A stretch of DNA of 32,093 nucleotides from Lachnospiraceae bacterium. GTDB lineage: Bacteria > Bacillota > Clostridia > Lachnospirales > Lachnospiraceae. The stretch lies in the NCBI GenBank assembly GCA_017612555.1, contig JAGAFR010000072.1, positions 1 through 32,093 of the forward strand, in the 5' to 3' direction. Positions 2,430-19,866 of the stretch are shown here, piece after piece. Under the pieces are notes generated by a model. That model had not been told where the DNA came from and did not search any database. It was given only the letters and a program-made list of their open reading frames with translations. The stretch's first letter is position 1, and each line of letters starts with the position of its first letter. A program made the position numbers and the translations under genes.

Positions 2430-3359
2430 ATGAGTAACGCAACACTAATGAAGGCTGTTAAGGCCGTTAATTTCATATCGGGAGAAGCGGTATCGGGACA
2501 GAAGCTCATGCGTCACCGGGCGGCGATGGAGCGCGCGGGCAGGATCGCACCGAAAGGCGATGTGGAGGTGAGCGAGTTTGCGGCAGGTAACATCGCATGT
2601 GAGGCGATACGACCCGAGTATGCGCACAATCCGGGATACGCGATATTGTATGTTCATGGCGGAGGCTATGTTTGCGGAGGTCTGTCATATGCAGGGATAC
2701 TTGCGTCAAAAATGGCAGTATCCACCGGATTTACGACGTACACATTTGATTACAGGCTTGCACCGGAACATCCGTATCCTTCTGCTCTTGAAGATGCGAT
2801 CGCAGTCTGGGATCATCTGACGTCGGGAAGATATCAGCCGGATCATGTGATTGTGGCGGGTGAATCCGCAGGCGGAAATCTGGCGCTGTGCCTTGCACAA
2901 AAGCTTGCGGCAGATAAAAGGCCCCTTCCTTTTCGTCTGATCCTTTTCAGTCCATGGACCGACATGACGGGTACGTCCGGATCCTATGAGACCAACAAAG
3001 AAGTCGATCCTATCCTTACCAAAGAGTATGTTGTAAATGCGGCAAAGGTATATATAGGAGATGCCGGGGATCCGTCGGATGCGAGATTTTCTCCGCTCTT
3101 CGGGGAACTGGGAAACCTTCCCGAAACATATATTATGGTCGGCAGGAATGAGATACTGCTCGATGACAGTGTGGGATTGTTTGATAATATCACTGATCAG
3201 GGCGGGACAGCTTATCTTGACATTGAAGAGAGCGGCTGGCATGTGTATCAGCAGATGCCCGTTCCCATAGCGTCACGCGCCATGAAGCGTATGTCGGCCT
3301 ATATCAGTTCGGGAGTTTACGGAGATAACATATGGGAAGTGACAACTGGTACAAAGTAG
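2430..3359 (+). CDS. Alpha/beta hydrolase, hormone-sensitive-lipase type esterase
   Basis: 309 residues with the HSL-family (alpha/beta hydrolase fold 3) signatures: oxyanion-hole HGGG at 76-79, nucleophile Ser146 in GESAGGN, and probable acid and base at Asp245 (ILLDDS) and His271 (GWHVYQ). It lacks a signal peptide, so it should act in the cytoplasm, hydrolysing short acyl or acetyl esters. It overlaps the next gene by 28 bp and heads a three-gene operon with a condensation-domain-like acyltransferase and a zinc-ribbon membrane protein. That context suggests ester turnover linked to the acyl transfer. The physiological ester is unknown. A Shine-Dalgarno sequence is weak, in line with a promoter placed very close to the start codon. 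Confidence 0.88.
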   Translation: MSNATLMKAVKAVNFISGEAVSGQKLMRHRAAMERAGRIAPKGDVEVSEFAAGNIACEAIRPEYAHNPGYAILYVHGGGYVCGGLSYAGILASKMAVSTGFTTYTFDYRLAPEHPYPSALEDAIAVWDHLTSGRYQPDHVIVAGESAGGNLALCLAQKLAADKRPLPFRLILFSPWTDMTGTSGSYETNKEVDPILTKEYVVNAAKVYIGDAGDPSDARFSPLFGELGNLPETYIMVGRNEILLDDSVGLFDNITDQGGTAYLDIEESGWHVYQQMPVPIASRAMKRMSAYISSGVYGDNIWEVTTGTK

Positions 3360-4582
3360 ATAACGTTGCAAAAGTATTCCTGGCAACGGTGACAAAGAGA
3401 GATCCGAAGACTCTCCGGGTCAGTTGCACTCTCAAGGAGGACATCGATCCCGAACTGCTACAGCAAGCCTTACTTTCCGCAATACAGGACAGACCGCAGT
3501 TTCAGATGAGGATCAGACGCGGACTGTTCTGGCATTACATGGAAAATACCGACATACTTCCCGAAGTGCATGAAGAATGCGACAGAGTATGTCCGCTTCT
3601 GTACATTCCGGCAAGAACGATGCTTCATTATCAGGTTACGTATTTCGGAAAGAGGATCAATCTTGATATGTTTCATGCACTGTCAGACGGGACAGGTGCA
3701 CTTGAGTTTTTGAACATCATTGTTCTTGATTATCTGAAGCTTCGCTACCCGGGACAGCTTGACCGGGTGACGATCCATTCCGGTGCATCGGCAGATGACC
3801 TCAGTCAGGACAGCTACAGACAGTTCTTTGGCAATATGGGACTGTCAGGAGTATCATCATTTCGAAAAGCATTTCGTCCTTCGGGATTAAAGCATCCATA
3901 TGATCAGTTACAGTTTTTTGAGATACGTATGCCGACAGATCAGATACTTCCGCGTGCCAAGGAACTTGGAGTATCACTTACAAGTTATGTCGGAGCATGC
4001 TGGATGATGGCGATCCGTGATGTGATGCCCCAGAGGAAGAAAAACATGCCTGTCACGATGACATTGCCGGTCAATCTTCGCAATTATTTTCCTTCACATA
4101 CATCGAGAAATTTTTTCAACAACGTAAGTGTCACGCACGTGTTTGACAAAGATATTTCCATTGAAGATCTGGCAGCGGAATTTGATGCTTCGCTTCGCAG
4201 TCAGCTCACGGAAGAAAACATCAAAAAACAGATGGACAATTTCGAGACTATGGAATACGTGGCGCCTATACGACCTGTTCCGCTTTTCATCAAACAGCTC
4301 GTAGTACGTCACGGCAAGAAGCTTGCCGACAGGAAAGTTACCATGGTACTGTCAAACCTCGGAAAGCTCACACCGCCCGAAGAGGTCGGAGAGAGGATCG
4401 ATAACTACAGTACTTTCTGCAGCAGTGAAAATCTGTTTACCACTATGTCGACGTTTGGGGGACAGCTCACTTTCGGTGTGTCATCACCGTATCAGAATAC
4501 GGGCGTCATCAAGAATTTTGTCAGAACACTGTCGCATGCAGGAGTGAGCATCACTGTATTTGCAACGGAGGTCATCGGATAA
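3332..4582 (+). CDS. Condensation-domain-like acyltransferase (COG4908 / alcohol acetyltransferase-like)
   Basis: 416 residues. The key motif is HALSDG at 115-120, matching the HxxxDG active site shared by chloramphenicol acetyltransferase, NRPS condensation domains, PapA acyltransferases and yeast-type alcohol acetyltransferases. His115 would be the general base. The length fits a single two-lobed condensation-like domain with no adenylation or carrier modules, so it probably uses an acyl-CoA or a free-standing acyl carrier. GGAG at 3321-3324, 7 nt before the ATG, supports the start inside the end of the esterase gene. The stop codon shares its last A with the next ATG (TAATG). No membrane segments are evident. 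Donor and acceptor cannot be read from the sequence. Confidence 0.75.
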   Translation: MGSDNWYKVDNVAKVFLATVTKRDPKTLRVSCTLKEDIDPELLQQALLSAIQDRPQFQMRIRRGLFWHYMENTDILPEVHEECDRVCPLLYIPARTMLHYQVTYFGKRINLDMFHALSDGTGALEFLNIIVLDYLKLRYPGQLDRVTIHSGASADDLSQDSYRQFFGNMGLSGVSSFRKAFRPSGLKHPYDQLQFFEIRMPTDQILPRAKELGVSLTSYVGACWMMAIRDVMPQRKKNMPVTMTLPVNLRNYFPSHTSRNFFNNVSVTHVFDKDISIEDLAAEFDASLRSQLTEENIKKQMDNFETMEYVAPIRPVPLFIKQLVVRHGKKLADRKVTMVLSNLGKLTPPEEVGERIDNYSTFCSSENLFTTMSTFGGQLTFGVSSPYQNTGVIKNFVRTLSHAGVSITVFATEVIG

Positions 4583-5250
4583 TGAAGACATGTCCATACT
4601 GCAATATATCCGTTGGGGGAGAGAGTCGGAAATGTCCCCTGTGTCAGAGCAAGTTGGCGGGAATCTCGGAAGGTGAGTATTTCCCGAGACAGAAGATGCT
4701 CCATCGCAGATCATTTTTGTATAAGCTCCAGCTGTTCATTGTCTGGATCGTTGTGATCGCTGCTCTCGGAGTTGATTTTCTCATGGGTGTGCGTATACCG
4801 CCGTCTTCGGATGTGCATTACAGCCTGATATTGTCGATGTGGCTGATAGCATTTGAATTTGCGATCATGCGCCAGTTCCGTAAGGGTACAGGCTCATCAA
4901 GGAGAGTCACGATGATGGTCATAATCATTCTGGGGCTTCTTACGGTTACATCATATTATTACGGGTTCTTCAGACTTACGACAGACTGGATAGCACCGTG
5001 TGCCATCACAGGTATGATGATCGCCAACTTTGTGTTGGCGATGATAGATAAGCGCGGCAATGCGATGGTCTATCTTCTGACCAATCTGCTCATAGGGATA
5101 CTGCCCTACATTGTCCTGTCGATCAGCCACAGGACCGCTTATATCACATGGATCATCTGTATGCTGATCAGTATCATATTGTTCGTGGGAGCGATAATCT
5201 TTAAAGGCAGGACTGTTGTGGGTGAGATCCAGCGCAGACTTAATGTGTAA
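4582..5250 (+). CDS. Zinc-ribbon multi-pass membrane protein (DUF6320-like)
   Basis: 222 residues. The N-terminus carries two CxxC pairs, Cys4/Cys7 and Cys18/Cys21, forming a small treble-clef or zinc-ribbon-like knuckle. About six hydrophobic helices follow from residue 47 to the end, with short loops. The start codon overlaps the acyltransferase stop by one base, so the two are almost certainly translated together. The domain order (zinc ribbon, then membrane) matches a family found with this hydrolase/acyltransferase pair in Lachnospiraceae, as far as I recall. Function is unknown. It could tether the two soluble enzymes to the membrane or transport the acylated product. Its 3' end overlaps the convergent lysozyme-like gene by 11 bp. 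Confidence 0.7.
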   Translation: MKTCPYCNISVGGESRKCPLCQSKLAGISEGEYFPRQKMLHRRSFLYKLQLFIVWIVVIAALGVDFLMGVRIPPSSDVHYSLILSMWLIAFEFAIMRQFRKGTGSSRRVTMMVIIILGLLTVTSYYYGFFRLTTDWIAPCAITGMMIANFVLAMIDKRGNAMVYLLTNLLIGILPYIVLSISHRTAYITWIICMLISIILFVGAIIFKGRTVVGEIQRRLNV

Positions 5251-5972: not shown

Positions 5973-8468
5973 ATGACAAAGAAGATCAGATTAGTCCTTT
6001 CTATCATACTTCTGATAGTATTCGGGTATATCATCATAGGAGAGATCACATTTCCCGCAAATGTTCCGGTAAACGGATACATCTGCGATATTCTTCCGCA
6101 GGATAACTGGGTACGGATCCTGGATGACGGAACCCGGGAGGCATTTGCCGTGCCCGGAAGAACCGATTCGGATATCGTTCTGGAGACTACGCTTCCCGAT
6201 CCCCTTAACAAAGATTATTCAGTCCTGTGCTTTCGCGGCATGGATATGGACATATATATAAACGGCGAGCTTCGCGAGAGCTACCACACGACCGATTACA
6301 AGCTTCTCGGGGACAGGTCTGCGGAGTGCTACGTCGTTGTATCGTTGTATCCCGAAGACGCAGGCGGTGTTCTCCAAGTAGCATACGATTACAACTTCGG
6401 AATGGTGTATGAAGTATATATCGGTACAAGGATCGGTATACTGACATATCTGTTCAAACAGTTCGGTCTGGAACTGTTCGTCGGATTCGGTCTTCTTCTG
6501 CTCGGTCTTATATGTTTGATCGCCGCGGTGATCTACAAGTACATCCACAACAAATATCTGGAGATGGAGCATCTGTCGATAGGCGTTATCATAGGCGCTG
6601 TTTGGGTATTGTCCAACTCCATATTCAGGCAGCTCTACACACGAAACATATCTGTGATGTCGGATACGCCGTTTCTGATGGTAATGGTGATGCCGCTTCC
6701 GTTTCTTGTGTTCATCGATTCGCTTCAGAACGGACGATACCGCAAGATCATAGGGATCGCAGGGATCATAACCACCATCAATCTTATCATCAGTTCCGTA
6801 CTGTTTGTTGCAGGGATCGTTCCGCTCACGGACAGCTTCATAGCATCGGCGATCTGTGTACTGATCTCGATAGTTGCCATGGTAATCACTATCGTTCTTG
6901 ATATCAGGAGGCATCTGATCCGGTCATACATTTTCGTAGCCGTTGGATTTGCTGTGCTTGCTGTTGCGGCAGTCATTCAGATAACCGTTTATCAGTTCGC
7001 ACATAACGGGGTTTTCTCCGGACTCTTTATGGCTCTCGGTCTGTTCGGATTCATGATATGCTCGATCATCCACACGATCAAGCAGCTTATCGGTATAAGG
7101 CTTGAGGCGAATGAGCTTGTACACATCAACAAGGCAAAGGATGATTTTCTTGCCAATATGTCCCATGAGATCAGGACGCCGCTCAACGGTATACTCGGTA
7201 TGGATGAGATGATAATCAGGGACACGAAAGAAAGCAGGGTCAGGGACTATGCGCTGGAGATCAAGAGTGCGGGGAATACTCTGCTGTCCATCATCAATGA
7301 CATTCTTGACCTCAGCAAGATCGAGTCGGGCAACTTTGAGATCATCCCGGTTGAATACGGCATCGCTTCGGTACTCAACGATGTCCTGAACATAACAAGG
7401 ATCCGTGCTCAGAAGAAAGGTTTAAGGTATGATTTTGACGTTTCTCCCAACATTCCGTCGGTCCTTGGCGGAGATGAGATCAGGATACGCCAGGTGCTCC
7501 TTAATATAATCAATAACGCCATCAAGTACACTAACGAAGGAAGCGTCAGTGTATCCGTATCATCGGAGCCGGTCATGATGGGTAATTACATCAATCTTAT
7601 CGTGAAGGTTGCCGATACCGGTATCGGGATCAGGGAAGAGGACAAGGACAAGCTGTTCAAGAGCTTCCAGCGCCTTGATGAAAGGAAAAATCACAGTATC
7701 GAGGGTACCGGCCTGGGACTTCATATAACAAACCTTCTGCTGCAGATGATGGAAGGAAGCATTGAATTTGAAAGCGAGTATGGCAAAGGAAGTACATTTA
7801 CGATCAACGTGCAGCAAAAGGTCGTAAAGGCTACACCTATCGGAGACTTCTCCAAGGCGGTTCGGAATTACCTCAGTAATATAGAGATAGATGAAGTGGG
7901 ATTGTATGCACCGAATGCGAAGGTGCTCGTGGTAGATGACAATGAAATGAACCTGGATGTAATGGAAGGGCTGCTTCGCGACACGAAGATCCGGGCAGAA
8001 TACGTTGATTCGGGAGCAACCTGCATCGAAAAAGTAAAGAGTACGAAATATGACTGTATCCTTCTTGATCAGATGATGCCGGGAATGAGCGGTGAAGAGA
8101 CATTGTCGGAGATGAAGGAGCAGGGCATACTTGATGGTACACCCGTGATCGCGCTTACCGCTGATGCGATAATAGGAGCCCGCGAGAGCTACATTGAAAA
8201 AGGCTTTACGGATTACATCTCCAAGCCCGTCAAATACGAAGTGCTTGAAAATGTCCTCAAGACCTATATCCCGAAGGAGAAACAGCTTTCACCCAGCGGT
8301 GCCGATGAACTTCCCGTCATGCTCATATGGGGAGACGATCCCGAAAAGCTGAAACAGGAAAAGCTCCGCCTCGACGGGATATACAAATGCGTATGCGTTA
8401 CGGGACAGAGCGCAATGGACAGATATCTGGAAAAGCATACTCCGGATGGGATCTTACATATTTGCTAA
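5973..8468 (+). CDS. Hybrid sensor histidine kinase with 7TM sensor and receiver domain
   Basis: 831 residues. Helix 1 (about 5-23) is followed by an extracellular beta-rich segment to about 155, then seven hydrophobic helices to about 370. This resembles a 7TMR-DISM-type sensor. The kinase core follows: H-box NMSHEIRTPLNG with phospho-accepting His398, N-box around IINNAIKYTN, G1 DTGIGI and G2 GTGLGL. A receiver domain begins near 648 with the acidic pair in VLVVDDNEMN and acceptor Asp699 in LLDQMMPG. The last ~50 residues resemble the first half of a second receiver (beta1 to beta3) and stop before the acceptor Asp would be reached. GAGGAG 4 nt upstream supports the start. The ligand and the downstream regulator are not identifiable. 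The 3' end overlaps the convergent adenylation gene by 15 bp. Confidence 0.92.
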   Translation: MTKKIRLVLSIILLIVFGYIIIGEITFPANVPVNGYICDILPQDNWVRILDDGTREAFAVPGRTDSDIVLETTLPDPLNKDYSVLCFRGMDMDIYINGELRESYHTTDYKLLGDRSAECYVVVSLYPEDAGGVLQVAYDYNFGMVYEVYIGTRIGILTYLFKQFGLELFVGFGLLLLGLICLIAAVIYKYIHNKYLEMEHLSIGVIIGAVWVLSNSIFRQLYTRNISVMSDTPFLMVMVMPLPFLVFIDSLQNGRYRKIIGIAGIITTINLIISSVLFVAGIVPLTDSFIASAICVLISIVAMVITIVLDIRRHLIRSYIFVAVGFAVLAVAAVIQITVYQFAHNGVFSGLFMALGLFGFMICSIIHTIKQLIGIRLEANELVHINKAKDDFLANMSHEIRTPLNGILGMDEMIIRDTKESRVRDYALEIKSAGNTLLSIINDILDLSKIESGNFEIIPVEYGIASVLNDVLNITRIRAQKKGLRYDFDVSPNIPSVLGGDEIRIRQVLLNIINNAIKYTNEGSVSVSVSSEPVMMGNYINLIVKVADTGIGIREEDKDKLFKSFQRLDERKNHSIEGTGLGLHITNLLLQMMEGSIEFESEYGKGSTFTINVQQKVVKATPIGDFSKAVRNYLSNIEIDEVGLYAPNAKVLVVDDNEMNLDVMEGLLRDTKIRAEYVDSGATCIEKVKSTKYDCILLDQMMPGMSGEETLSEMKEQGILDGTPVIALTADAIIGARESYIEKGFTDYISKPVKYEVLENVLKTYIPKEKQLSPSGADELPVMLIWGDDPEKLKQEKLRLDGIYKCVCVTGQSAMDRYLEKHTPDGILHIC

Positions 8469-9977
8469 TGCGTTGCGGTCTATCTTTCCGTTTTTGTTTA
8501 TCGGAAATTCGGTAAGTTGAACTGTCTTACCGGGTATCATGAATTCAGGAAGCTTTTCTTTCAGTGAAAGAGAAAGGCTTTCTTTTTCTATATCGCCGGT
8601 ATAGTAGAGTATGATCTTCTTTTTCTTTTCGTCATACAGACAGCATGATCTTGAAACACCGTCGACCGCGGTTGCTGACAGCTCGATGTCGGCAAGTTCG
8701 ATACGCTGGCCCATATGTTTGATCTGATGATCCTTTCGGGAAGTGTAGTACAGAAGATGGGCGTCATCATATTTTCCCAGATCTCCCGTTCTGTATATAC
8801 GCTCGTAGTAGCAGTCATTGAGAGGATTCTGTACAAACGCTTCGGCTGTCCTGTCGGGATCCTTGTAATACCCGATCGCAAGACACGTTCCGGAAACGCA
8901 TATCTCACCCTCGATACCGGGCTCGGTGACAAGCTTATTATTTTCATCGAGCAAAAATACCTTTTCATTCTCAAACGGTATTCCGATAGGAATGACTTCA
9001 TCTTTGGCATATTCCCTGTCAATAACATGATATGTGCAATTGCAGGTGATCTCCGTGGGACCGTATAAGTTTATGTATGTAGCAGGTATGTGTGCCTGCC
9101 ACTTCTGAAGCTGCTTGACCGGCATGATCTCACCGCTGAACATAACGAGTCGTAATGAATCCGGAGTCCTGTAATCAAATCCGTTCATGATCGACACAAA
9201 ACACATTGCGGTAACTGCCCATATGATCACGGTCGTGCCGCCGTCACACAGGTAGTCCATGAGCTGTGTCGGGTTTGTAAAGTATTCTCTCGGGATGAGC
9301 CTTACCGTCGCACCCGTATACAGTCCCGAATAGATATCCTTGACCGATACGTCAAAATCAAAAGGTGCCTGATTGGCGATCACATCACTGCTCTTTATCC
9401 CGAATGTCTTTGTGAATATACTGATAAAATCGACCACCGAAGCATGGTTTACCGCTACACCTTTCGGTACTCCGGTGCTGCCGCTCGTAAAGTTCACATA
9501 CAGAGGAAGAGTATCATGAAACAGTGTGTGGGCTTTTGCCAGAGCATCTTCATCTATCGTAAGACCGTCAAGAAATGCAATGTCTGTAAGTTCCTCGATC
9601 ATAAGAGGGCTGCAGTTTTTTGCGATTCGAAGGAGTCGTTCTTTGTTCGCAGCATCTGTTACGATAACCGAAGGATCAACACGTTCTATGATGGAAAGAG
9701 CTCTCTCATCAGACTGCCTGATATCAACGAAGCAGTAGAATGCATTACAGTATGCTCCCGCGAACATGACGGAAAGTGCAGGGGTACATTTTTCCATATA
9801 AAAAAGGACAGACCCGCCTTGGCCTGTCATGTAACCTTCCGACAGGAAATGACTTGCGATCTTCCGACTGTTTTGAAGAAGCCTTTCAAATGTTACGGAA
9901 GATGTGGGATCCGAAAAAGCTGTCTTATCGGGAAAGGCTTTTGCGGAAGCCTCAAGCATTTCACATATACCGGTCAT
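8454..9977 (-). CDS. DltA-like amino-acid adenylation enzyme (stand-alone A domain)
   Basis: 507 residues, close to DltA length (about 500). Adenylation motifs are in order: A3 NFTSGSTGVPKG (162-173), A4 region NQAPFDFDVSVKDIY (202-215), A5 NLYGPTE (303-309), A7 YRTGDLGKYD (395-404) and A10 NKNGKIDR with catalytic Lys497. Such enzymes activate an amino acid as aminoacyl-AMP and load it on a carrier-protein thiol. In the position of the DltA Cys that helps select D-alanine (Cys269 in Bacillus cereus DltA) this protein has Ser281 in VMFSGEIMP, so the substrate may differ. There is no fused carrier domain and no carrier gene in the operon. I chose the ATG at 9977 because it overlaps the upstream stop (ATGA) with GGAGG upstream. 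A longer frame from 10064 adds 29 residues with no family similarity. Confidence 0.85.
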   Translation of the reverse strand: MTGICEMLEASAKAFPDKTAFSDPTSSVTFERLLQNSRKIASHFLSEGYMTGQGGSVLFYMEKCTPALSVMFAGAYCNAFYCFVDIRQSDERALSIIERVDPSVIVTDAANKERLLRIAKNCSPLMIEELTDIAFLDGLTIDEDALAKAHTLFHDTLPLYVNFTSGSTGVPKGVAVNHASVVDFISIFTKTFGIKSSDVIANQAPFDFDVSVKDIYSGLYTGATVRLIPREYFTNPTQLMDYLCDGGTTVIIWAVTAMCFVSIMNGFDYRTPDSLRLVMFSGEIMPVKQLQKWQAHIPATYINLYGPTEITCNCTYHVIDREYAKDEVIPIGIPFENEKVFLLDENNKLVTEPGIEGEICVSGTCLAIGYYKDPDRTAEAFVQNPLNDCYYERIYRTGDLGKYDDAHLLYYTSRKDHQIKHMGQRIELADIELSATAVDGVSRSCCLYDEKKKKIILYYTGDIEKESLSLSLKEKLPEFMIPGKTVQLTEFPINKNGKIDRNALANM

Positions 9978-11038
9978 TGATCGATCATTCCTCCGTTCCT
10001 TATTATCACGTCTGTCAGATACTCCGTTGAAGCTTTTTTGTACTGCCCGGATACATGCTCCCAATCGTAGAAGTATGCGTCGGGAAGTATATTGTGAAGC
10101 TGCGGATCATCCTCTGTATTATAATATATAAAACCTCTTTTTGATATAAAATCATCAAGATAATCGCTTACCTGTGCTATGTCGGCCCTGTATGATCCGT
10201 ACCTGTCATAGTAATCGGTCCTGTGGGGTGTCACTATGACAGAAAATGCAATGCCGTTATCACGGCAGTAGCTGCACATCTCGGCCAGCAGTGTCAGCTT
10301 GTCAGCGGATAACATATCCTGCGGGATATCAAGACTGTTCATGGAATCGATATCAGCTGTAAGGAGCGCTCTGTCATCATCCGTAAGATCTCCGGGAAGT
10401 CTGTTATACACAGGGGTATTAAGATCATATGCGATGTCGTATCCGAGGGGCTTGTGCTCGATAAGTCTTTTCCATCGTCTCCTGATATTTCCCGTGATAT
10501 TGCCCAGTCCGTTGATGTGTTCTTCCTCCCATGGGATCCAAATATTGACCGATCTTTCGGTATCGAGAATGCCCAAAGAGACCGTTTTATCGGTGTTGTA
10601 TTTAATTTCGTTGATGATACTTTTACAGAATGGGCTTGATGAATTGACTACGCGGTTGTACAGATGATCTATCCCGTCATAGCTTTCTGCACTTGCGGTA
10701 TCAAATGTCATGAGCAGGATCGCGTTCTTAATATTGTGATGACTTCCTGCCAGTTTGATATTCCGAAGGGAAACATACAGTCCCTGTGAAGGAGTGCACA
10801 TGTTAAATGCATGTGTTCCGACAGCTTCCGAAAACTCTGTATCCTCCATCATCTCACCGGCAGAGTTTCCCACAAAGACAGTGTCTATGTCTTTCGTGTG
10901 AGAATAGCGGCTGAGCATGTTTTCCGTTGCATTTTCATCCATCTCGAAGGAAGCGTTAAATACCATTACAAGACAGAGAAAAATCATAACGAACAAAAGG
11001 GATTTTAATATTCTTTTTATAACCTTAGAATGCTGCAT
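9974..11038 (-). CDS. DltD-like SGNH-type membrane-anchored protein
   Basis: 354 residues. An N-terminal anchor helix (about 11-28) is followed by an extracytoplasmic domain. Catalytic features of the DltD/SGNH group are visible: nucleophile Ser59 in FVGNSAGE and the C-terminal DxxH pair Asp325/His328 in YDWEHVSG. DltD proteins work outside the membrane with DltB in the last step of polymer D-alanylation. The gene lies between an MBOAT gene (14-bp overlap) and a DltA-like gene (ATGA overlap), so the three should be made together. AGGGG lies 8 nt before the start. It may hand the activated aminoacyl group from the MBOAT to its final acceptor. DltD itself is somewhat longer (about 420 residues), so this is a shorter relative. 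Confidence 0.75.
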   Translation of the reverse strand: MQHSKVIKRILKSLLFVMIFLCLVMVFNASFEMDENATENMLSRYSHTKDIDTVFVGNSAGEMMEDTEFSEAVGTHAFNMCTPSQGLYVSLRNIKLAGSHHNIKNAILLMTFDTASAESYDGIDHLYNRVVNSSSPFCKSIINEIKYNTDKTVSLGILDTERSVNIWIPWEEEHINGLGNITGNIRRRWKRLIEHKPLGYDIAYDLNTPVYNRLPGDLTDDDRALLTADIDSMNSLDIPQDMLSADKLTLLAEMCSYCRDNGIAFSVIVTPHRTDYYDRYGSYRADIAQVSDYLDDFISKRGFIYYNTEDDPQLHNILPDAYFYDWEHVSGQYKKASTEYLTDVIIRNGGMIDQ

Positions 11039-12581
11039 ACATGAATCCCCTTATTCCCGATGAAACAGAAAACGAATACAAAAGAAGAAACAGCAGCGAG
11101 AAGTATACAACCCATCTTTTGTAATATGCAAGTGAGCAGATATACCGGAGAGGTGACGAGCCCTTTTCCTTGAAAACACTGTTGGTTATCAGCAGCAGTA
11201 CTGCAATTGCGGCAGCTGAGAGCGCCTGTACGGAAGTAACGTTATCGGTAAACAGAGCCTTTGTCATTTCCAACCCCCCTGCCATATCAAAGTGCAGGAG
11301 GGTATTGATAAAGCAGCTGATGCCCACCTTTACCGGACCTATCACATCAAAGTATCCCGCAAAGACAACTATCATAAATGTCCTGATCACGCGAAATACA
11401 TGCATGCCTTTACTGTCCTGAGGAATATGCAGCAGTACGTTCAGTTTTGCAAACAACGGGGCCATTGCATCGGAAGCCGCTATGATGATTCCGTTATACA
11501 GACCCCACGCCAGGAAATGCTTTTCAGGTCCGTGCCATAATCCTACCAGAGCGAAAACAAGGAGGTTACTGATCCCTCCGGTAATACTTCTTCCTGCATG
11601 ATTTCCGAATCTTTTGCTGACAGCTTTAGTCATCCTGGATACAGGTGCTGTAGTTACGAACGGGAAGAAGACATAGTCTCTCATAAAGCTTCCCAGTGTG
11701 ATATGCCATCTGCGCCAGAATTCGGCAAGAGACGTTGCAAAGTAAGGCTGCCGGAAGTTCTCATTCATTTTGACTCCGAACAGCAGAGAGATCCCCATCG
11801 ACATATCGATACCGCCGGAAAAATCACAGTACTGTTGTATTGCAAAGGCAAAGGCACCAAGGAGCGCAAATGATCCCGGATATGCGGCTGAATTGTTATT
11901 AAGAGCCGACCTTACTATCGGAGCCAGAAGATCTGCTATCGCATATTTTTTTACAGCTCCGAACAGGAACATATAGACTGAGATCCGAAGATCCGGTGCA
12001 TGCATCCGGTATGTTTTGTACAGATCATCTTTTACAAGATCGTACCGGTTGATGGGTCCCTGGATCAGCTGGGGAAACCAGCACAGATACAGTGTGAGCT
12101 TGGCAGGATTCTTCTGTGGCTCGTATTTTTCACCGTATATATCAACTATGTAAGAGATCGCCTGAAGTGTGTAAAAGGAAATCCCAAGAGGCAGGGCTAT
12201 GGGATGCCCTGTAACAGGGAACAGGTATTTGACCACGGCCAGAAGTCCGAGATTGAATATGACTATAAAGGCCGTATAGATCATTTTTGTCCTGCGGCAT
12301 TTTTCTCGGGAAGCTTTCTTTTCCTCACGTGACAAACCTTCCTGCTGTCTGTATTTTTTATTTTTTTCCGTAAGCTGAAAAAGCAGCAGACCGCCGCTCC
12401 AGATTGTTATGGTTGATGCGATCAGGAATACGACCTTGATACCGGACAGATAGGTAAAGAAGAAAAGACTCGCAAGGAGTCTTACCACCCACTGGTATTT
12501 AGGGACCATTTCTCTTGCAAGGTCATGTATGAAAATGAAGAATATGATAAACAGAAAAAAATGCAGTGAGTAAAAAGCCAT
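11025..12581 (-). CDS. MBOAT-family membrane acyltransferase (DltB/AlgI-like)
   Basis: 518 residues with about 11 hydrophobic segments. The MBOAT signatures are present: FRQPYFATSLAEFWRRWHIT (276-295) with His293, and the invariant His350 in VGLWHGPEKHF. The conserved YCDFSGGIDMSMG (251-263) is typical of the DltB/AlgI branch. Such proteins take an acyl or aminoacyl group from a cytoplasmic carrier protein or CoA and move it across the membrane to an extracellular hydroxyl. One base separates it from the decarboxylase stop, and its own 3' end overlaps the DltD-like gene, so it is in the middle of one transcription unit. No strong ribosome-binding site is seen, and translation is probably coupled to the upstream gene. 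Confidence 0.9.
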   Translation of the reverse strand: MAFYSLHFFLFIIFFIFIHDLAREMVPKYQWVVRLLASLFFFTYLSGIKVVFLIASTITIWSGGLLLFQLTEKNKKYRQQEGLSREEKKASREKCRRTKMIYTAFIVIFNLGLLAVVKYLFPVTGHPIALPLGISFYTLQAISYIVDIYGEKYEPQKNPAKLTLYLCWFPQLIQGPINRYDLVKDDLYKTYRMHAPDLRISVYMFLFGAVKKYAIADLLAPIVRSALNNNSAAYPGSFALLGAFAFAIQQYCDFSGGIDMSMGISLLFGVKMNENFRQPYFATSLAEFWRRWHITLGSFMRDYVFFPFVTTAPVSRMTKAVSKRFGNHAGRSITGGISNLLVFALVGLWHGPEKHFLAWGLYNGIIIAASDAMAPLFAKLNVLLHIPQDSKGMHVFRVIRTFMIVVFAGYFDVIGPVKVGISCFINTLLHFDMAGGLEMTKALFTDNVTSVQALSAAAIAVLLLITNSVFKEKGSSPLRYICSLAYYKRWVVYFSLLFLLLYSFSVSSGIRGFMYAAF

Positions 12582-12582
12582 G

Positions 12583-13758
12583 TCAGTTGTCCGTTGTATT
12601 AATTATCCAGGATCCCATGCGGCTGCGCACTTCACACATGCTCCTTCCGTCATACATCAATACACTTGGGATGTCGCGTGAGAGGAACAGAGCCGGTGCT
12701 TCGGTTACGGAATATGCACCGATATTGCAGAACATGAGAATATCTCCGATAGCCGGGTCATTAAGAGGAAGTTCGCGGACAAGTACGTCGTTGACCGTGC
12801 ATAGTGAGCCGCATATTGTATATTTTTTCCCTCCTTCGCCGGGCGCATCAACAAACTTTCCGTTTCGCATCTGTTTGATGACGGGTATCTTCATTCCAAC
12901 CATCTGACCGAGATAATTGACGTGATTGATACCTCCGTCGACGATGATCCAGTTCACATCGGCAGACTTTTTGATATCGCATATCTGTGTCATATAATAT
13001 CCGCAGCTGCTGGCGATAAAGCGTCCCATTTCAACGGACAGCGTGCGCTCCTTTGACACTTTGCGAAGATCTTCTCTGATCTCGCGAAGAGGCAGGAGTG
13101 TATCGGAAAAATCCTCATCGATAAAGTACGGATGGGGAAGTCCCGGACCGTATTCAAGCATCGGAAGACTGCAGCCTGATCTCTTCTCAAGATCATTCAT
13201 GACAGTTGTCAGCTTATCAAGCTCAGCCTGTTTCTTTTTGGCTGATCTTCGTCCCGTTCCGGCAAAATAGTGAAGTCCCCGGATCGTAATATTTGAAGTT
13301 TTTTCTTTAAGGATAGATTCTATGTCTTCGATCGACATACCGAACTGATTGCCGCTTGTAAGACGCAGGATGACATTTACCTTCTTACCGGTCTTTTCTG
13401 CCATTTCGTTTATCAGATGAAAATGCCTTATCGATTCGGCGGTGAGGATGGCTGCTCCGTATACTATCGCTTCTTCGATATCCGCTGCATCCTTATGAAC
13501 ACCTGAATAGATGATCTTGTTTCCGGGAACTTTTTGATCTTTACAGATCATAAGCTCTCCGGGACTGCATACTTCCAGATAATCAACGAGAGGAAGGACG
13601 GTCGGTATCAGGAAAGGATTGGCTTTGATCGAGTAGCACAGTCTGATATCACCGAGTATCTTACGAATGTCTGTAACTCTGTCCGTAAGAACTGTCTCGT
13701 CGAACATGAAAGCCGGCGTATTATCCATGATCTGTTGAAAAGTGATCTGTTTACCCAT
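12583..13758 (-). CDS. Fold-III PLP-dependent decarboxylase (BtrK / exosortase-A-associated type)
   Basis: 391 residues from the ATG at 13758. The alanine-racemase-like barrel carries the PLP lysine Lys45 in CYSIKANP and the phosphate-binding GNQFGMS. The C-terminal beta domain has the catalytic Cys320 in CGSLCTVND. Diaminopimelate decarboxylases have CESGD there and a GAYxxSMSSNYN motif further on. This protein has GAYSVTEAPALFLSRD, closer to BtrK (which decarboxylates a glutamyl group bound to a carrier protein) and to the exosortase-A-associated decarboxylases. The gene is first in a dlt-like operon, so it probably makes or edits the aminoacyl unit. A longer frame begins at 13776, but that ATG overlaps the -10 TATAAT, so the start at 13758 fits a leaderless mRNA better. 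The substrate is unknown. Confidence 0.8.
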   Translation of the reverse strand: MGKQITFQQIMDNTPAFMFDETVLTDRVTDIRKILGDIRLCYSIKANPFLIPTVLPLVDYLEVCSPGELMICKDQKVPGNKIIYSGVHKDAADIEEAIVYGAAILTAESIRHFHLINEMAEKTGKKVNVILRLTSGNQFGMSIEDIESILKEKTSNITIRGLHYFAGTGRRSAKKKQAELDKLTTVMNDLEKRSGCSLPMLEYGPGLPHPYFIDEDFSDTLLPLREIREDLRKVSKERTLSVEMGRFIASSCGYYMTQICDIKKSADVNWIIVDGGINHVNYLGQMVGMKIPVIKQMRNGKFVDAPGEGGKKYTICGSLCTVNDVLVRELPLNDPAIGDILMFCNIGAYSVTEAPALFLSRDIPSVLMYDGRSMCEVRSRMGSWIINTTDN

Positions 13759-13767
13759 AACGTATAG

Positions 13768-13796
13768 ATTATACATTAATTGTACCCATCAATAAA
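13768..13796 (-). promoter_or_regulatory. Putative promoter of the dlt-like operon
   Basis: On the minus strand, TTTATT (13796-13791), a 17-bp spacer and a perfect TATAAT (13773-13768). The transcription start would fall near 13761, about 3 nt before the ATG at 13758, which has no Shine-Dalgarno sequence. It is back to back with the D,D-carboxypeptidase promoter within about 60 bp. Confidence 0.4.
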
Positions 13797-16934: not shown

Positions 16935-18128
16935 ATGAAATACCTGATACTCGGAGCAGGGCCTGCCGGCCTGACATTTGCAAATATGCTGCTTAGCAGC
17001 GGCGAAGATGACTTTCTTGTTATCGAGAAGGAGAACAGTGCCGGAGGACTGTGCAGGAGCTGCATGGTTGACGGAAGTCCATTCGATATCGGCGGCGGGC
17101 ATTTTCTGGATGTACGGGATCCTGACGTAACAAAGTTCGTGTTCGGGTTTCTGCATGAGGATGAATGGGACAGGTACGAGCGTGACTCGAGGATCGATCT
17201 GTACGGAGATATCATAGGAAGCCCTATCGAGGCTAATATATGGCAGCTGCCGGATAAGAAACAGGAGAGGTTCCTGCATCATATCGCTGAGGCCGGCTGC
17301 AACAGGGGCGAACCGATGCCCGAAAAGTTCACCGATTGGATCGAGTGGAAGCTGGGCCTGGCGATCGCCGAAGATTATATGCTTCCGTATAATCGCAAGA
17401 TGTTCGGTGAGGATCTTGACAGCCTTGGTACATACTGGTTGGAAAAGCTTCCCAACGTATCCTATGAAGAAACGAAACGTTCATGCGCCGAACACAGACC
17501 ATACGGGACGCAGCCCGGTCATGCGAAGTTCTTCTATCCTCACAGCTACGGATACGGAGAGGCATTTATCCGGATGGCATCAGCACTCGGAGATCGGATA
17601 CATTATAACGAGCCGGTCTTTTCGATCGATTACGACAACAGGATCGTAAACGGAAAATACAGTGCGGACAAAATAATCGTAACGATCCCTTGGACCGGTG
17701 TCAGAGAACATATCGGTCTGCCCGGTAAGCTTACGGACAGTATAGGAAAGCTTCGGTACAGTTCCGTAGTTATCGAATACGTTCCGGAAAACATGGACAC
17801 CAAGGCTCATTGGATATACTATCCGGATCCGAAACTGTCCTATCACAGGATACTTGTCCGGCATAACTTCTGTCCCGGTTCGAAAGGTTACTGGACCGAG
17901 ACGAACCTTACAAGGTTTGACGAGGATAAGGCTGCAGAAGAAGGCAGGACCTATTTTGTTAATGAATATGCATATCCTCTTAATACGATAGGAAAACAGG
18001 AGCTGATGAAGGAGCTCCTTGAATATACGGCATCGAAGAACATATACGGACTTGGCCGATGGGGTGAGTGGCAGCATTACAATTCGGATGTTGTTATTAG
18101 GAGAGCGATGGAGCTTTCAATAAATTAA
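16935..18128 (+). CDS. FAD-dependent oxidoreductase, protoporphyrinogen oxidase / UDP-galactopyranose mutase-like
   Basis: 397 residues. The N-terminus is a Rossmann FAD-binding motif, ILGAGPAGLTFA, followed at about 28-60 by VIEKENSAGGLCRS and FDIGGGHFL, as in amine oxidases and UDP-galactopyranose mutases. The middle contains YNRKMFGEDLDSLGTYWL, similar to the YNxKxW segment of UGM-like proteins. A C-terminal GLGRWGEW matches the second FAD-contacting motif of that group. There is no signal peptide. The gene precedes a GT-C membrane glycosyltransferase, so a role in making or altering a nucleotide sugar or lipid-linked sugar is plausible, but a true mutase assignment is not secure. Confidence 0.7.
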   Translation: MKYLILGAGPAGLTFANMLLSSGEDDFLVIEKENSAGGLCRSCMVDGSPFDIGGGHFLDVRDPDVTKFVFGFLHEDEWDRYERDSRIDLYGDIIGSPIEANIWQLPDKKQERFLHHIAEAGCNRGEPMPEKFTDWIEWKLGLAIAEDYMLPYNRKMFGEDLDSLGTYWLEKLPNVSYEETKRSCAEHRPYGTQPGHAKFFYPHSYGYGEAFIRMASALGDRIHYNEPVFSIDYDNRIVNGKYSADKIIVTIPWTGVREHIGLPGKLTDSIGKLRYSSVVIEYVPENMDTKAHWIYYPDPKLSYHRILVRHNFCPGSKGYWTETNLTRFDEDKAAEEGRTYFVNEYAYPLNTIGKQELMKELLEYTASKNIYGLGRWGEWQHYNSDVVIRRAMELSIN

Positions 18129-18216
18129 GGAGTGTCGCGCATTTGGATCGCCTGCGGCGATGGGCGCTCCACGTGTAGACAGGTTCTTCCCACTGCGTGG
18201 GCCCCTCCTATCTACA
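18129..18216. repeat. Two-hairpin structured element between flavoprotein and glycosyltransferase genes
   Basis: Hairpin 1: ATCGCC-TGC-GGCGAT (18147-18161), extended outward by GCGC (18137-18140, 18164-18167) and GGA/TCC. Hairpin 2: CCCAC-TGC-GTGGG (18189-18201) inside an outer stem AGG/CCT and TGTAGA/TCTACA (18174-18179, 18211-18216). Both have a TGC loop. No T-run follows. The architecture looks like an intergenic palindromic repeat. Confidence 0.6.
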
Positions 18217-18234
18217 GTTTGTGGTTTATAGATT

Positions 18235-19866
18235 ATGAGAAACATTAGAGAATACTTCAGCGAAGAGTTAAACAGATATAAGGTAAGTGCACTTCTAATT
18301 TTTATTGCAGTCATCACTGCACTTGCATGGCAGAGCGATGACAGTTATCACGCCTATATCATGGCGAAGAACCTCGTGGATGGAAACGGATTTGTATATA
18401 ACATAGGACAGAGGGCAACAGCGACAACTTGTCCGTTGTTCACGCTTGTTGTTGCGGCGGGATATTTTGTGATAAGGGATATGTTTTTTGTGTCTCTCCT
18501 TATCAACATCATATTCTCAAGTCTTGCTTTTTATATACTCGTGTGGGATTTTTGCAAGACCAGGCGTCAGATCATTGCCTGTCTGTTCGTCCTGATTGGA
18601 TCGGTGAGCTTCGTCAGTTATACGACATCGGGTCTTGAAAACAGCATGCTGTTCTTCCTCGGCGCATGCTATGCAAAAGTGTATTTTGCAAGCGAGAGAT
18701 ATAACACAAAGAAGATGTTCATACTGGCGATACTCGTAGCCCTCATCGCAATGACAAGGATGGATGCTGCGCTCATAGTCGCACCGATGTCGCTGTATGT
18801 GTACCTGACAAGACGTGACGGAGTGTCCTTCGGAAAAGCAGTATTTCTCGGGATCACCGGACTGATGCCGTTCGTTTTGTGGGAGCTTTTCTCAACGTTC
18901 TACTATGGATTTCCCGCCCCGAATACTGCGTATGCCAAGCTTGGCACTGATTTTCCGATCATGGATTATCTCGTAAGAGGGATGGGGTATTTTCTTAATG
19001 CGTTATTGTGCGATCCGGTGCTGCTCATAGTTCCGATCGCTGCGATCTTTGCAGCAATATACGTAAGAAAAGCACAGTACCTTTTGTTCATGACAGGCCC
19101 CATACTGTACGGGATCTATCTTCTGTACGTGGGCGGTGATTTTATGATGGGAAGGCATTTTACACTGTCGTTCTTTCTGTCACTTATATGCTACATGGAT
19201 ATCAAGAACCGTGAATTTTCGGTTCTCGGAAAAGGTGCATCATTCAATAAAAAATTTGTTATCGTGTCGGCGGCTGCCATCATATATACGGGCATCGCAC
19301 AGCCGGTCACGCAGCAGTTCACGTTCGGAAGGACTTTCGGATCCGCCATATCGGATGAGAGGGCAGGTTATTTTCAGACGTCGAGTCTGTTCAACAATCT
19401 GTATTCGCTCGTAAGGAACGGGCGGCTTTGCATCAGGGACACATGGAATGAAAACGGAGTTGATGAGATACGTGAAAATCACATGCCCGGGGGTATTCTT
19501 GAGAGCGTACCCGGTATCACGAAGTATTACAACAATGATCTTTATTTGAACGACCTGTATGCGCTGGGAGATCCGTTCCTGGCACATCTGCCTGCGGTAG
19601 TGGAGCCGGGCTGGAGGATAGGACATATGTGGAGGCAGGCACCGGAAGGATACTCCGATATGATACTGTTTTCATACACTCCCAATTCGATAAAAAATGA
19701 AGATGCCAGGGCGTACTACCGGATCATCGATGAGATAACAAGAGGTCCCCTGTTTGATAAAGACAGGATACAAAAGGTCATCGACATCAACCTTGGCAGA
19801 TACGATTACCTGATAGATAACTACAAGGCTACTCTTGATGAAAACCATAAACAGATAAACAAGTAA
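18235..19866 (+). CDS. GT-C-fold membrane glycosyltransferase
   Basis: 543 residues. A first helix (about 15-35) is followed by WQSDDSYHAYIMAKNLVDG, a loop with an acidic pair typical of GT-C enzymes that use polyprenyl-phosphate sugars. The following GFVYNIGQRATATTCPLFTL resembles the NxGERVEGYTxPLW stretch seen in AftB-like arabinofuranosyltransferases. About nine more hydrophobic helices run to about residue 390, and the last ~150 residues form a soluble domain likely outside the cell. The family adds sugars to envelope glycans or proteins on the outer face. Donor and acceptor are unknown. The gene follows a flavoprotein possibly involved in sugar metabolism, and no good ribosome-binding site is visible. 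Confidence 0.7.
   Translation: MRNIREYFSEELNRYKVSALLIFIAVITALAWQSDDSYHAYIMAKNLVDGNGFVYNIGQRATATTCPLFTLVVAAGYFVIRDMFFVSLLINIIFSSLAFYILVWDFCKTRRQIIACLFVLIGSVSFVSYTTSGLENSMLFFLGACYAKVYFASERYNTKKMFILAILVALIAMTRMDAALIVAPMSLYVYLTRRDGVSFGKAVFLGITGLMPFVLWELFSTFYYGFPAPNTAYAKLGTDFPIMDYLVRGMGYFLNALLCDPVLLIVPIAAIFAAIYVRKAQYLLFMTGPILYGIYLLYVGGDFMMGRHFTLSFFLSLICYMDIKNREFSVLGKGASFNKKFVIVSAAAIIYTGIAQPVTQQFTFGRTFGSAISDERAGYFQTSSLFNNLYSLVRNGRLCIRDTWNENGVDEIRENHMPGGILESVPGITKYYNNDLYLNDLYALGDPFLAHLPAVVEPGWRIGHMWRQAPEGYSDMILFSYTPNSIKNEDARAYYRIIDEITRGPLFDKDRIQKVIDINLGRYDYLIDNYKATLDENHKQINK

Follow-up and report, generated by a model that had tools for sequence, protein, structure and literature searches.

D-alanylation sets surface charge and cationic-peptide resistance in Gram-positive bacteria. 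The window analysed here, a stretch of 32,093 nucleotides (G000:C64:1-32093) from a Lachnospiraceae draft genome of 2.51 Mb (94 contigs, 89.7% complete), carries a minus-strand operon of four genes that resembles the D-alanylation system DltXABCD (Dlt) but adds a pyridoxal-phosphate (PLP) decarboxylase, hereafter DEC. We propose, at even confidence, that this operon supplies activation and export within an envelope acylation system of five genes (ligase, DEC, carrier, MBOAT and SGNH protein) that decarboxylates a carrier-bound acidic amino acid. The features in common with Dlt were a DltA-like ligase, a DltC-like carrier (encoded in the operons of relatives and, in the window genome, on contig C44), a DltB-like MBOAT with both histidines, a DltD-like SGNH protein and an FXYXXF shuttle motif. 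Unlike Dlt, the window system includes the decarboxylase, and its ligase pocket differs as a block from that of the dlt ligases of the same genus. The gene order is also different, the shuttle motif is fused to the MBOAT (as it is in the dlt operons of the genus), the window proteins fall below the NCBIfam cut-offs for DltA, DltB and DltD, and the carrier of the window genome lies at a distant locus. For Dlt itself, the abstract of PMC12071552 gives D-serine as an alternative substrate.

Decarboxylation on a carrier is described for the VinN-VinL-VinO set of vicenistatin biosynthesis (3-methylaspartyl-carrier), in which the PLP decarboxylase acts on a carrier-bound amino acid and loading must precede decarboxylation (PMC11284099, excerpt). 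This set is similar to the window-type system in having an adenylating ligase for a dicarboxylic amino acid, a free-standing carrier and a carrier-acting PLP decarboxylase, VinO being likened to DEC by description and not by sequence; unlike the window-type system, it feeds a polyketide synthase and not an envelope exporter. In butirosin biosynthesis, BtrK decarboxylates a glutamyl carrier protein to a γ-aminobutyrate (GABA) carrier protein, as stated in an excerpt of PMC7857480. BtrK is the closest solved relative of DEC, whereas the BtrI-BtrK/BtrJ set belongs to a soluble antibiotic pathway. BtrJ is reportedly an ATP-grasp ligase and not an adenylating ligase of the window kind. To our knowledge, carrier-bound decarboxylation is otherwise confined to antibiotic pathways. 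The exosortase-A ligase and decarboxylase (TIGR03098 and TIGR03099) also form a pair of AMP ligase and fold-III PLP decarboxylase, but the window ligase and DEC both score below the cut-offs of these NCBIfam families. PatA/PatB and other MBOAT-SGNH systems share with the window operon an MBOAT with a C-terminal FXYXXF and an SGNH partner, and differ from it in that PatA uses acetyl-CoA. An excerpt of PMC12148441 states that, apart from Dlt, MBOAT/SGNH pathways have no carrier, whereas the window-type system combines a carrier with the fused motif. No description of this operon was found in the titles and opening lines of abstracts listed for the open-licence literature searched. Each part of the system is known and the combination was not found described; we regard it as a variant of MBOAT-SGNH envelope acylation, in which the split-off carrier is a special feature of the window genome.

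The four genes lie on the minus strand in the order decarboxylase, MBOAT, SGNH protein and ligase. They encode DEC, a fold-III PLP decarboxylase of 397 amino acids (12583-13776; 391 amino acids from an internal ATG at 13758, the start given in the first-pass annotation), a DltB-like MBOAT acyltransferase of 518 amino acids (11025-12581), a DltD-like SGNH protein of 354 amino acids (9974-11038) and a DltA-like amino-acid adenylating ligase of 507 amino acids (8454-9977). A single base separates the DEC and MBOAT genes, the MBOAT and SGNH genes overlap by 14 bases, and the SGNH stop and the ligase start share a 4-base ATGA overlap (9974-9977, minus strand). The open reading frame (ORF) of the ligase extends to a TTG at 10064, and the ATG at 9977 agrees with the starts in relatives. 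Inspection of ORFs and junctions found no carrier ORF that fits any junction of the window operon, which bears out the first-pass annotation of four coupled genes in this order without room for a carrier. The same annotation had called the operon carrier-less, a description that holds for the window locus and not for the system: in five genus-mates (G006, G004, G019, G016 and G052; loci L043, L044, L046, L047 and L199) a gene for a 75-residue DltC-like carrier lies between the SGNH and ligase genes of the same operon, at the junction occupied in the window by the ATGA overlap. All four window genes recur in the closest genus-mates at about 55-77% identity, which excludes a chance arrangement.

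From gene content, synteny, conservation and motifs we infer a pathway, including its substrate, its order of loading and decarboxylation, its use of a carrier in trans and its target polymer. The ligase would adenylate a small dicarboxylic amino acid, most likely aspartate (or glutamate), via the side-chain carboxyl, with Lys213 holding the other carboxylate, and would load it onto a holo carrier, which in the window genome is most likely the one encoded on C44. DEC, acting like BtrK or VinO, would then remove the α-carboxylate on the carrier and leave an ω-aminoacyl thioester, either β-alanyl from aspartate, the favoured product, or GABA from glutamate. The MBOAT would pass this group through the membrane to the tyrosine of its own C-terminal FMYAAF, standing in for DltX, and the SGNH serine would take the group and pass it on to an envelope polymer, esterifying a hydroxyl there; the MBOAT/SGNH pair on C44 would draw on the same loaded carrier. 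The outcome would be a positively charged ester like that of D-alanylation, with the amine further from the ester. A β-alanyl group is favoured over GABA for two reasons: the pocket appears small, and a GABA thioester is prone to cyclise to a lactam. The butirosin pathway is said to protect its GABA unit; no protecting enzyme was seen by look among the five conserved genes, and none was searched for elsewhere. If the proposal is correct, the operon would represent a second, chemically distinct aminoacyl system, in which MBOAT-SGNH export is joined to carrier-bound decarboxylation, and a part of the envelope chemistry of commensals that has so far been missed. An ester with its amine further from the carbonyl should also outlast a D-alanyl ester at neutral pH.

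The association of these genes was surveyed in 37 genomes of the genus, in which DEC of this type was found in 22, the ligase in 23 and the carrier in 24. Fisher p values, not corrected for kinship, were 1.8e-5 for DEC and ligase, 9.1e-5 for DEC and carrier, and 5.9e-7 for ligase and carrier. Ligase and DEC occurred together in 20 genomes, DEC only in two (G008 and G023, in which the contig stops inside the DEC region or shortly after it) and the ligase only in three. A scan of a species-genome collection gave at least 540 stretches encoding some DEC relative, and the best 80 of these were kept as named loci; all 80 DECs are distinct, and 11 of the loci lie on the same contigs as genus genomes. 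Some of the named loci are cut by contig ends, and among the 80 the ligase was found in 74, the carrier in 69, the MBOAT in 60 and the SGNH protein in 59. All five genes fell within 5.5 kb in 35 of the 47 loci having at least 4.5 kb on both sides, the ligase was immediately upstream of DEC in 61 of the 72 with room for it, and the carrier was immediately downstream in 58 of the 76 with room. Most often the genes are arranged as ligase-DEC-carrier with MBOAT/SGNH, from which the window locus departs as a split case. A search for the recurring association, suggested in the first-pass annotation, has thus found it widely. A broken association in relatives had been named there as evidence to the contrary; the association is kept in 20 of the 23 genus genomes with this ligase and is broken in three, which lack DEC. 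By their labels, the records of the named loci belong to several Bacillota families, Coriobacteriia and one Treponema bin; their titles include Lachnospira, Butyrivibrio, Roseburia, Bulleidia, Solobacterium, Gemmiger, Olsenella, Tractidigestivibacter and the Treponema, many are metagenome bins, and the labels need care. Among cultured commensals, the complete five-gene set is seen in the records of Lachnospira multipara ATCC 19207 (L185), Gemmiger formicilis ATCC 27749 (L176) and Butyrivibrio sp. NC2002 (L157). In an even sample across the phylum, DEC of this type (E<=1e-70) was detected in two of 298 other genomes, and is therefore scattered across the phylum.

The ligase has the Pfam domain PF00501 and is DltA/NRPS-like (NRPS, nonribosomal peptide synthetase), with 290.3 bits against TIGR01733 and 246.6 bits against the DltA family TIGR01734, below the cut-off of 559.85. 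That cut-off is strict for this group, since the DEC-free dlt ligase of the genus also falls below it (269.2 bits). Against the exosortase-A ligase family TIGR03098, the window ligase scored 165.4 bits with a cut-off of 592.35. Pocket residues were compared in 77 distinct ligases (87 less 10 duplicates), of which 18 came from genus loci and the window and 59 from named loci, where pieces shorter than 400 amino acids were left out; 76 belong to DEC loci and one to the DEC-less genome G018. At the nine specificity positions, which we assigned by what we take to be the NRPS numbering, all 77 read DVK[ST][VI]F[LVI]CN, in contrast to DAIS[VI]FIGV in five ligases that the genus encodes in decarboxylase-free dlt operons. 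Lys213 (codon 9339-9341, minus strand), presumably position 239 in the usual numbering, is Lys in 77/77 and Ile in 5/5 of the dlt ligases, and Cys312-Asn313 (codons 9039-9044, minus strand), presumably positions 330/331, are Cys-Asn in 77/77 and Gly-Val in 5/5. Overall similarity does not account for this block change, since the ligases of L057 and L059 have the DVK..CN pocket although their identity to the window ligase (43% and 42%) is no higher than that of the dlt ligases (42-44%). Asp209 is presumably the usual amine-binding residue, and Lys213 suggests that a carboxylate of the substrate is held. Phe280, a bulky residue also present in the dlt ligases, is kept in the pocket, and Val and Cys are gained; because this Phe would keep the pocket small, aspartate may be favoured over glutamate. 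Ligases of G045 and G049 that were 46% identical were not counted as this type; among those retrieved, L202 has a dlt pocket and L201 a different one. Two ligases from other families of the order (L111 and L112), with pockets DSKSIFIVD and DAKSIFLGM, were also set aside from the counts. The former has the lysine and ends in VD, which presumably resembles a glutamate code, and is encoded in a dlt-like operon of G040 (L111, 5694-10903) with an extra 264-residue protein between ligase and carrier.

DEC carries the Orn/DAP/Arg-decarboxylase Pfam domains (DAP, diaminopimelate). BtrK was its best PDB match by single sequence (1.1e-23, followed by an Aquifex DAP decarboxylase at 1.7e-23) and by profile (181.6 bits, with 146.5 for SbnH and 144.9 for DAP decarboxylase), and BtrK (7ru7) also ranked first by fold, only narrowly ahead of DAP decarboxylases (E 6e-29, the next at 3.7e-28). 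The best NCBIfam match of DEC was TIGR03099, with 174.3 bits below a cut-off of 478.45, and the LysA family TIGR01048 gave 140.1 bits, below 297.9. Lys51 (in YSIKANPF; codon 13624-13626, minus strand), which we take from the family to be the PLP lysine, was invariant in 12 aligned DECs. Thr327 (codon 12796-12798, minus strand), which follows the conserved Cys326, was Thr or Ser in all 88 distinct DECs (84 T and 4 S; 99 less 11 duplicates), and BtrK has Thr at this position in a pairwise alignment. By contrast, 11 of 13 other aligned homologues have Glu after the Cys together with a YN signature, and the DECs have neither. Two of these 11 were scored against TIGR01048: the protein of G018 reached 370.6 bits, above the cut-off, and that on contig C52 of the window genome 271.9 bits, just under it; the latter is a separate LysA-like protein of the window genome. 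L031 and L032, the closest of the aligned homologues to DEC, carry Thr and Ser in place of Glu, lack the YN and were assigned to neither group; the motif EMGR is common to DEC and the LysA-like protein of the window genome and gives no separation. The comparison with BtrK made in the first-pass annotation is upheld by these results, as DEC is nearer BtrK than LysA by profile, fold rank and signature residues.

BtrK and DAP decarboxylases share a clade of this fold, according to an excerpt of PMC7857480, and DEC matches both. It is conceivable that meso-DAP is loaded by one end, that DEC removes the other carboxylate and that a lysyl group is exported, and both ends of DAP are α-amino acids, so an ordinary α-activating ligase would suffice. 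We consider this very unlikely, since the ligase pocket looks small, with Phe280 kept and Val and Cys gained, and since DEC lacks the LysA-type Glu after the Cys and the YN signature. DEC could also be a passenger, a lysine-pathway or polyamine enzyme located by chance in a D-alanylation operon, as the three genus-mates without DEC might indicate. This seems extremely improbable in view of the separate LysA-like protein (271.9 bits for a TIGR01048 cut-off of 297.9) and the separate DEC-free dlt operon of the window genome, the presence of the ligase in 74 of the 80 distinct DEC loci from records labelled as several families, and the ligase pocket that differs as a block from those of dlt ligases.

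Several points weigh against carrier-bound decarboxylation as the function of DEC. The case against an obligate role is strongest in G018, G042 and G043 (98%, 82% and 70% complete; loci L104, L197 and L198), where an MBOAT, an SGNH protein, a ligase and a carrier of this type are present and the pocket motifs are unchanged, and where no DEC was found. As the other four genes are kept, this suggests that DEC is dispensable or replaced in some lineages; such genomes either export the undecarboxylated amino acid or have a stand-in enzyme, or, in G042 and G043, the gene is unassembled. The 80 named loci were picked by DEC, and thus show its partners and not how often these partners occur without it. 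The lead of BtrK is clear by profile and narrow by fold or single sequence. In ordinary adenylating enzymes it is the α-carboxyl that is activated, and an amino acid loaded in this manner could not lose its α-carboxylate. Furthermore, VinN presumably holds its carboxylate with residues other than those of the window ligase, located elsewhere in the pocket. The three DEC-less loci are in themselves a natural comparison for the role of DEC.

Two other orders of events were considered. In the first, the ligase loads an acidic amino acid by the α-carboxyl, aspartyl or glutamyl is exported, and DEC is accessory (e.g., in editing or in making a minor variant). Lysine at this pocket position is presumably also a signature of domains that activate glutamate at the α-carboxyl, and pocket motifs are unchanged in the three genus-mates without DEC; nevertheless, we regard this order as decidedly unlikely, since the ligase immediately upstream of DEC in 61/72 named loci and the DEC present in 20/23 ligase genomes imply a closer link than an accessory role suggests. 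In the second, decarboxylation comes first, with DEC producing a free ω-amino acid (β-alanine, GABA or similar) that the ligase then loads, followed by the same export. A precedent exists in incednine biosynthesis, where the PLP decarboxylase IdnL3 acts on free β-glutamate (PMC11284099, excerpt), and in DEC-less genomes, where the ligases keep their pocket, the product could come from elsewhere. We judge this order unlikely but worth serious attention; BtrK, the nearest solved relative, acts on a carrier-bound substrate, and the invariant pocket lysine (77/77) fits a carboxylate that is absent from the decarboxylated product. Loading by the side chain followed by decarboxylation on the carrier is the reading adopted below.

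The MBOAT matched Pfam PF03062, its best solved relatives were DltB 6bug/8jem, and His293 and His350 were invariant in 11 aligned sequences, although the score against the DltB family of NCBIfam was 151 with a cut-off of 375. Its last six codons (11028-11045, minus strand), which overlap the start of the SGNH gene, encode FMYAAF. DltX and MBOATs such as PatA share the acyl-shuttle motif FXYXXF, whose tyrosine hands the acyl group on to the SGNH partner (excerpt of PMC12148441). Among 67 distinct MBOAT tails in the named loci, the strict pattern was present in 56 and a laxer one in 60, while the tyrosine was present in all 67; in the dlt operons of the genus the motif is likewise fused to the MBOAT and occurs together with a carrier. 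The SGNH protein had no Pfam match and no significant PDB match by profile search, and scored 15.3 against the DltD family of NCBIfam, for which the cut-off is 150. Its AlphaFold model (mean predicted local distance difference test, pLDDT, 80.5) matched SGNH esterases, PatB and, at rank four, DltD 6pfx with Foldseek, and DltD was not among the 50 rows listed by VIA-align. Judged from the model, the protein is predicted to have the SGNH hydrolase fold, on the DltD/PatB side, and Ser59 and His328 were invariant in 18 aligned sequences. The export pair of MBOAT and DltD-like SGNH protein recognised in the first-pass annotation therefore keeps its export residues, namely the His pair, Ser and His, and FMYAAF.

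The carriers of this group have an invariant phosphopantetheine serine, as SFD or SMS, in 17 aligned sequences. Four operon carriers that were scanned scored 16.3-17.1 bits against Pfam PP-binding, below the cut-off of 20.8, which explains why the first genome-wide carrier search missed the subfamily. That family yielded three carriers in the window genome, none of the right subfamily: one adjoins a plsX-like gene and is presumably AcpP, the one on C21 has a ligase within 3 kb, and the one on C6 adjoins a ligase and a 475-residue protein, condensation-like by eye. The C6 genes (L004, 9442-12667), encoding an AMP ligase, a 78-residue carrier and the 475-residue protein, form another carrier-based set. 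A profile built from six carriers of relatives found two more carriers in the window genome, at C44:58638-58859 (E 1.3e-30) and C30:44361-44582 (E 1.0e-19), and with a 17-row profile these were the only two at E<=1e-12. The C44 carrier is 66-72% identical to the five operon carriers and 42% to the dlt-type carrier on C30, which belongs to the separate decarboxylase-free operon (ligase-carrier-MBOAT-DltD-like). The gene on C44 is convergent to a second MBOAT/SGNH pair, and no ligase or DEC was found near it in the 17 kb examined. This carrier of the right subfamily is consistent with the earlier expectation that one must be encoded elsewhere, and most likely serves the window ligase in trans; the C30 carrier might do so instead, or a further carrier could be missing from the draft genome. 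Distant carriers were also seen in relatives. In G002 and G007, the only close carrier sits on a different contig from DEC, and in G024 and G048 it lies several kilobases from DEC, in G024 beside an SGNH/MBOAT pair.

The locus of G001 runs LepA, HemW, a 419-residue gene, ligase, DEC, SGNH/MBOAT and a 1149-residue protein (LepA and HemW, here and in G004, being presumed labels), with a carrier match after DEC that was flagged with an internal stop. At the matching site of G004 (LepA 92%, HemW 69% and a 1144-residue protein 80% identical), a 422-residue gene is followed by a carrier and SGNH/MBOAT; ligase and DEC are absent, and the sole ligase and sole DEC of this type in G004 are both in its other, complete operon. 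The C44 locus has the same core as this G004 locus without ligase and DEC, and the window operon is collinear with the complete G004 operon, a match that extends to the genes for the carboxypeptidase, PepT and the FAD protein. Reciprocal loss would explain this most simply, the C44 locus having lost ligase and DEC and the window operon its carrier, with one activation module serving two exporters. However, the C44 carrier shares only 53% identity with its counterpart at the matching G004 locus and is closer to the operon carriers (66-72%), so that it may be the operon carrier moved, or a copy that acted as a replacement, and not the result of simple loss elsewhere. With confidence a little short of even, we extend the proposal to a widespread, undescribed ω-aminoacylation (β-alanyl or GABA esters) in bacteria of the gut and rumen, whereby two separate MBOAT/SGNH exporters can be fed by one activation module through a single carrier at a distant locus.

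Further exporters were noted at other loci. In L172-L174 and L180, labelled Coriobacteriia or bacterium OL-1, at least two MBOAT pieces and two or three SGNH proteins surround one ligase-DEC-carrier core, and several exporters per activation module may be usual in this group. A further SGNH-MBOAT pair, with an MBOAT 47-49% identical to that of the window, was found in G008 (L109, 2502-5098) and in G019 (L110, 7133-9644). No ligase, carrier or DEC was recognised in these two stretches, and the pairs are a possible additional customer of the loaded carrier.

The genomic context of the operon was also examined. A phosphonopyruvate decarboxylase gene is located directly upstream of DEC in G006 (L043; 442.1 bits, cut-off 312.5) and a phosphoenolpyruvate (PEP) mutase gene near the operon in G016 (L047; 415 bits, cut-off 319.55). 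Each of these two genomes also holds the partner phosphonate gene (90% and 88% identical), the PEP mutase of G006 being a fragment at the end of its stretch. In G008, a glucose-1-phosphate cytidylyltransferase gene lies upstream of DEC (382.8 bits, cut-off 300.25). Phosphonate-pathway and cytidylyltransferase genes often serve surface glycans, and these neighbours fit envelope decoration; phosphonate and aminoacyl groups may decorate one and the same polymer. One sulfatase-family protein (presumably the family of LtaS) and one partial glycerophosphotransferase match were present in the window genome, neither of which decides the polymer. Within the window, a D-Ala-D-Ala carboxypeptidase gene diverges upstream of the operon, and a convergent gene for a hybrid sensor kinase downstream overlaps the ligase stop by 15 bases. 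Genes for an α/β hydrolase, a PapA/alcohol-acetyltransferase-like protein and a DUF6320 protein lie in a row at 2430-5250. At 16935-19866, a FAD amine-oxidoreductase-like protein and a membrane protein that weakly matches an arabinofuranosyltransferase are encoded in a region collinear with G004, which is possibly another envelope glycan module.

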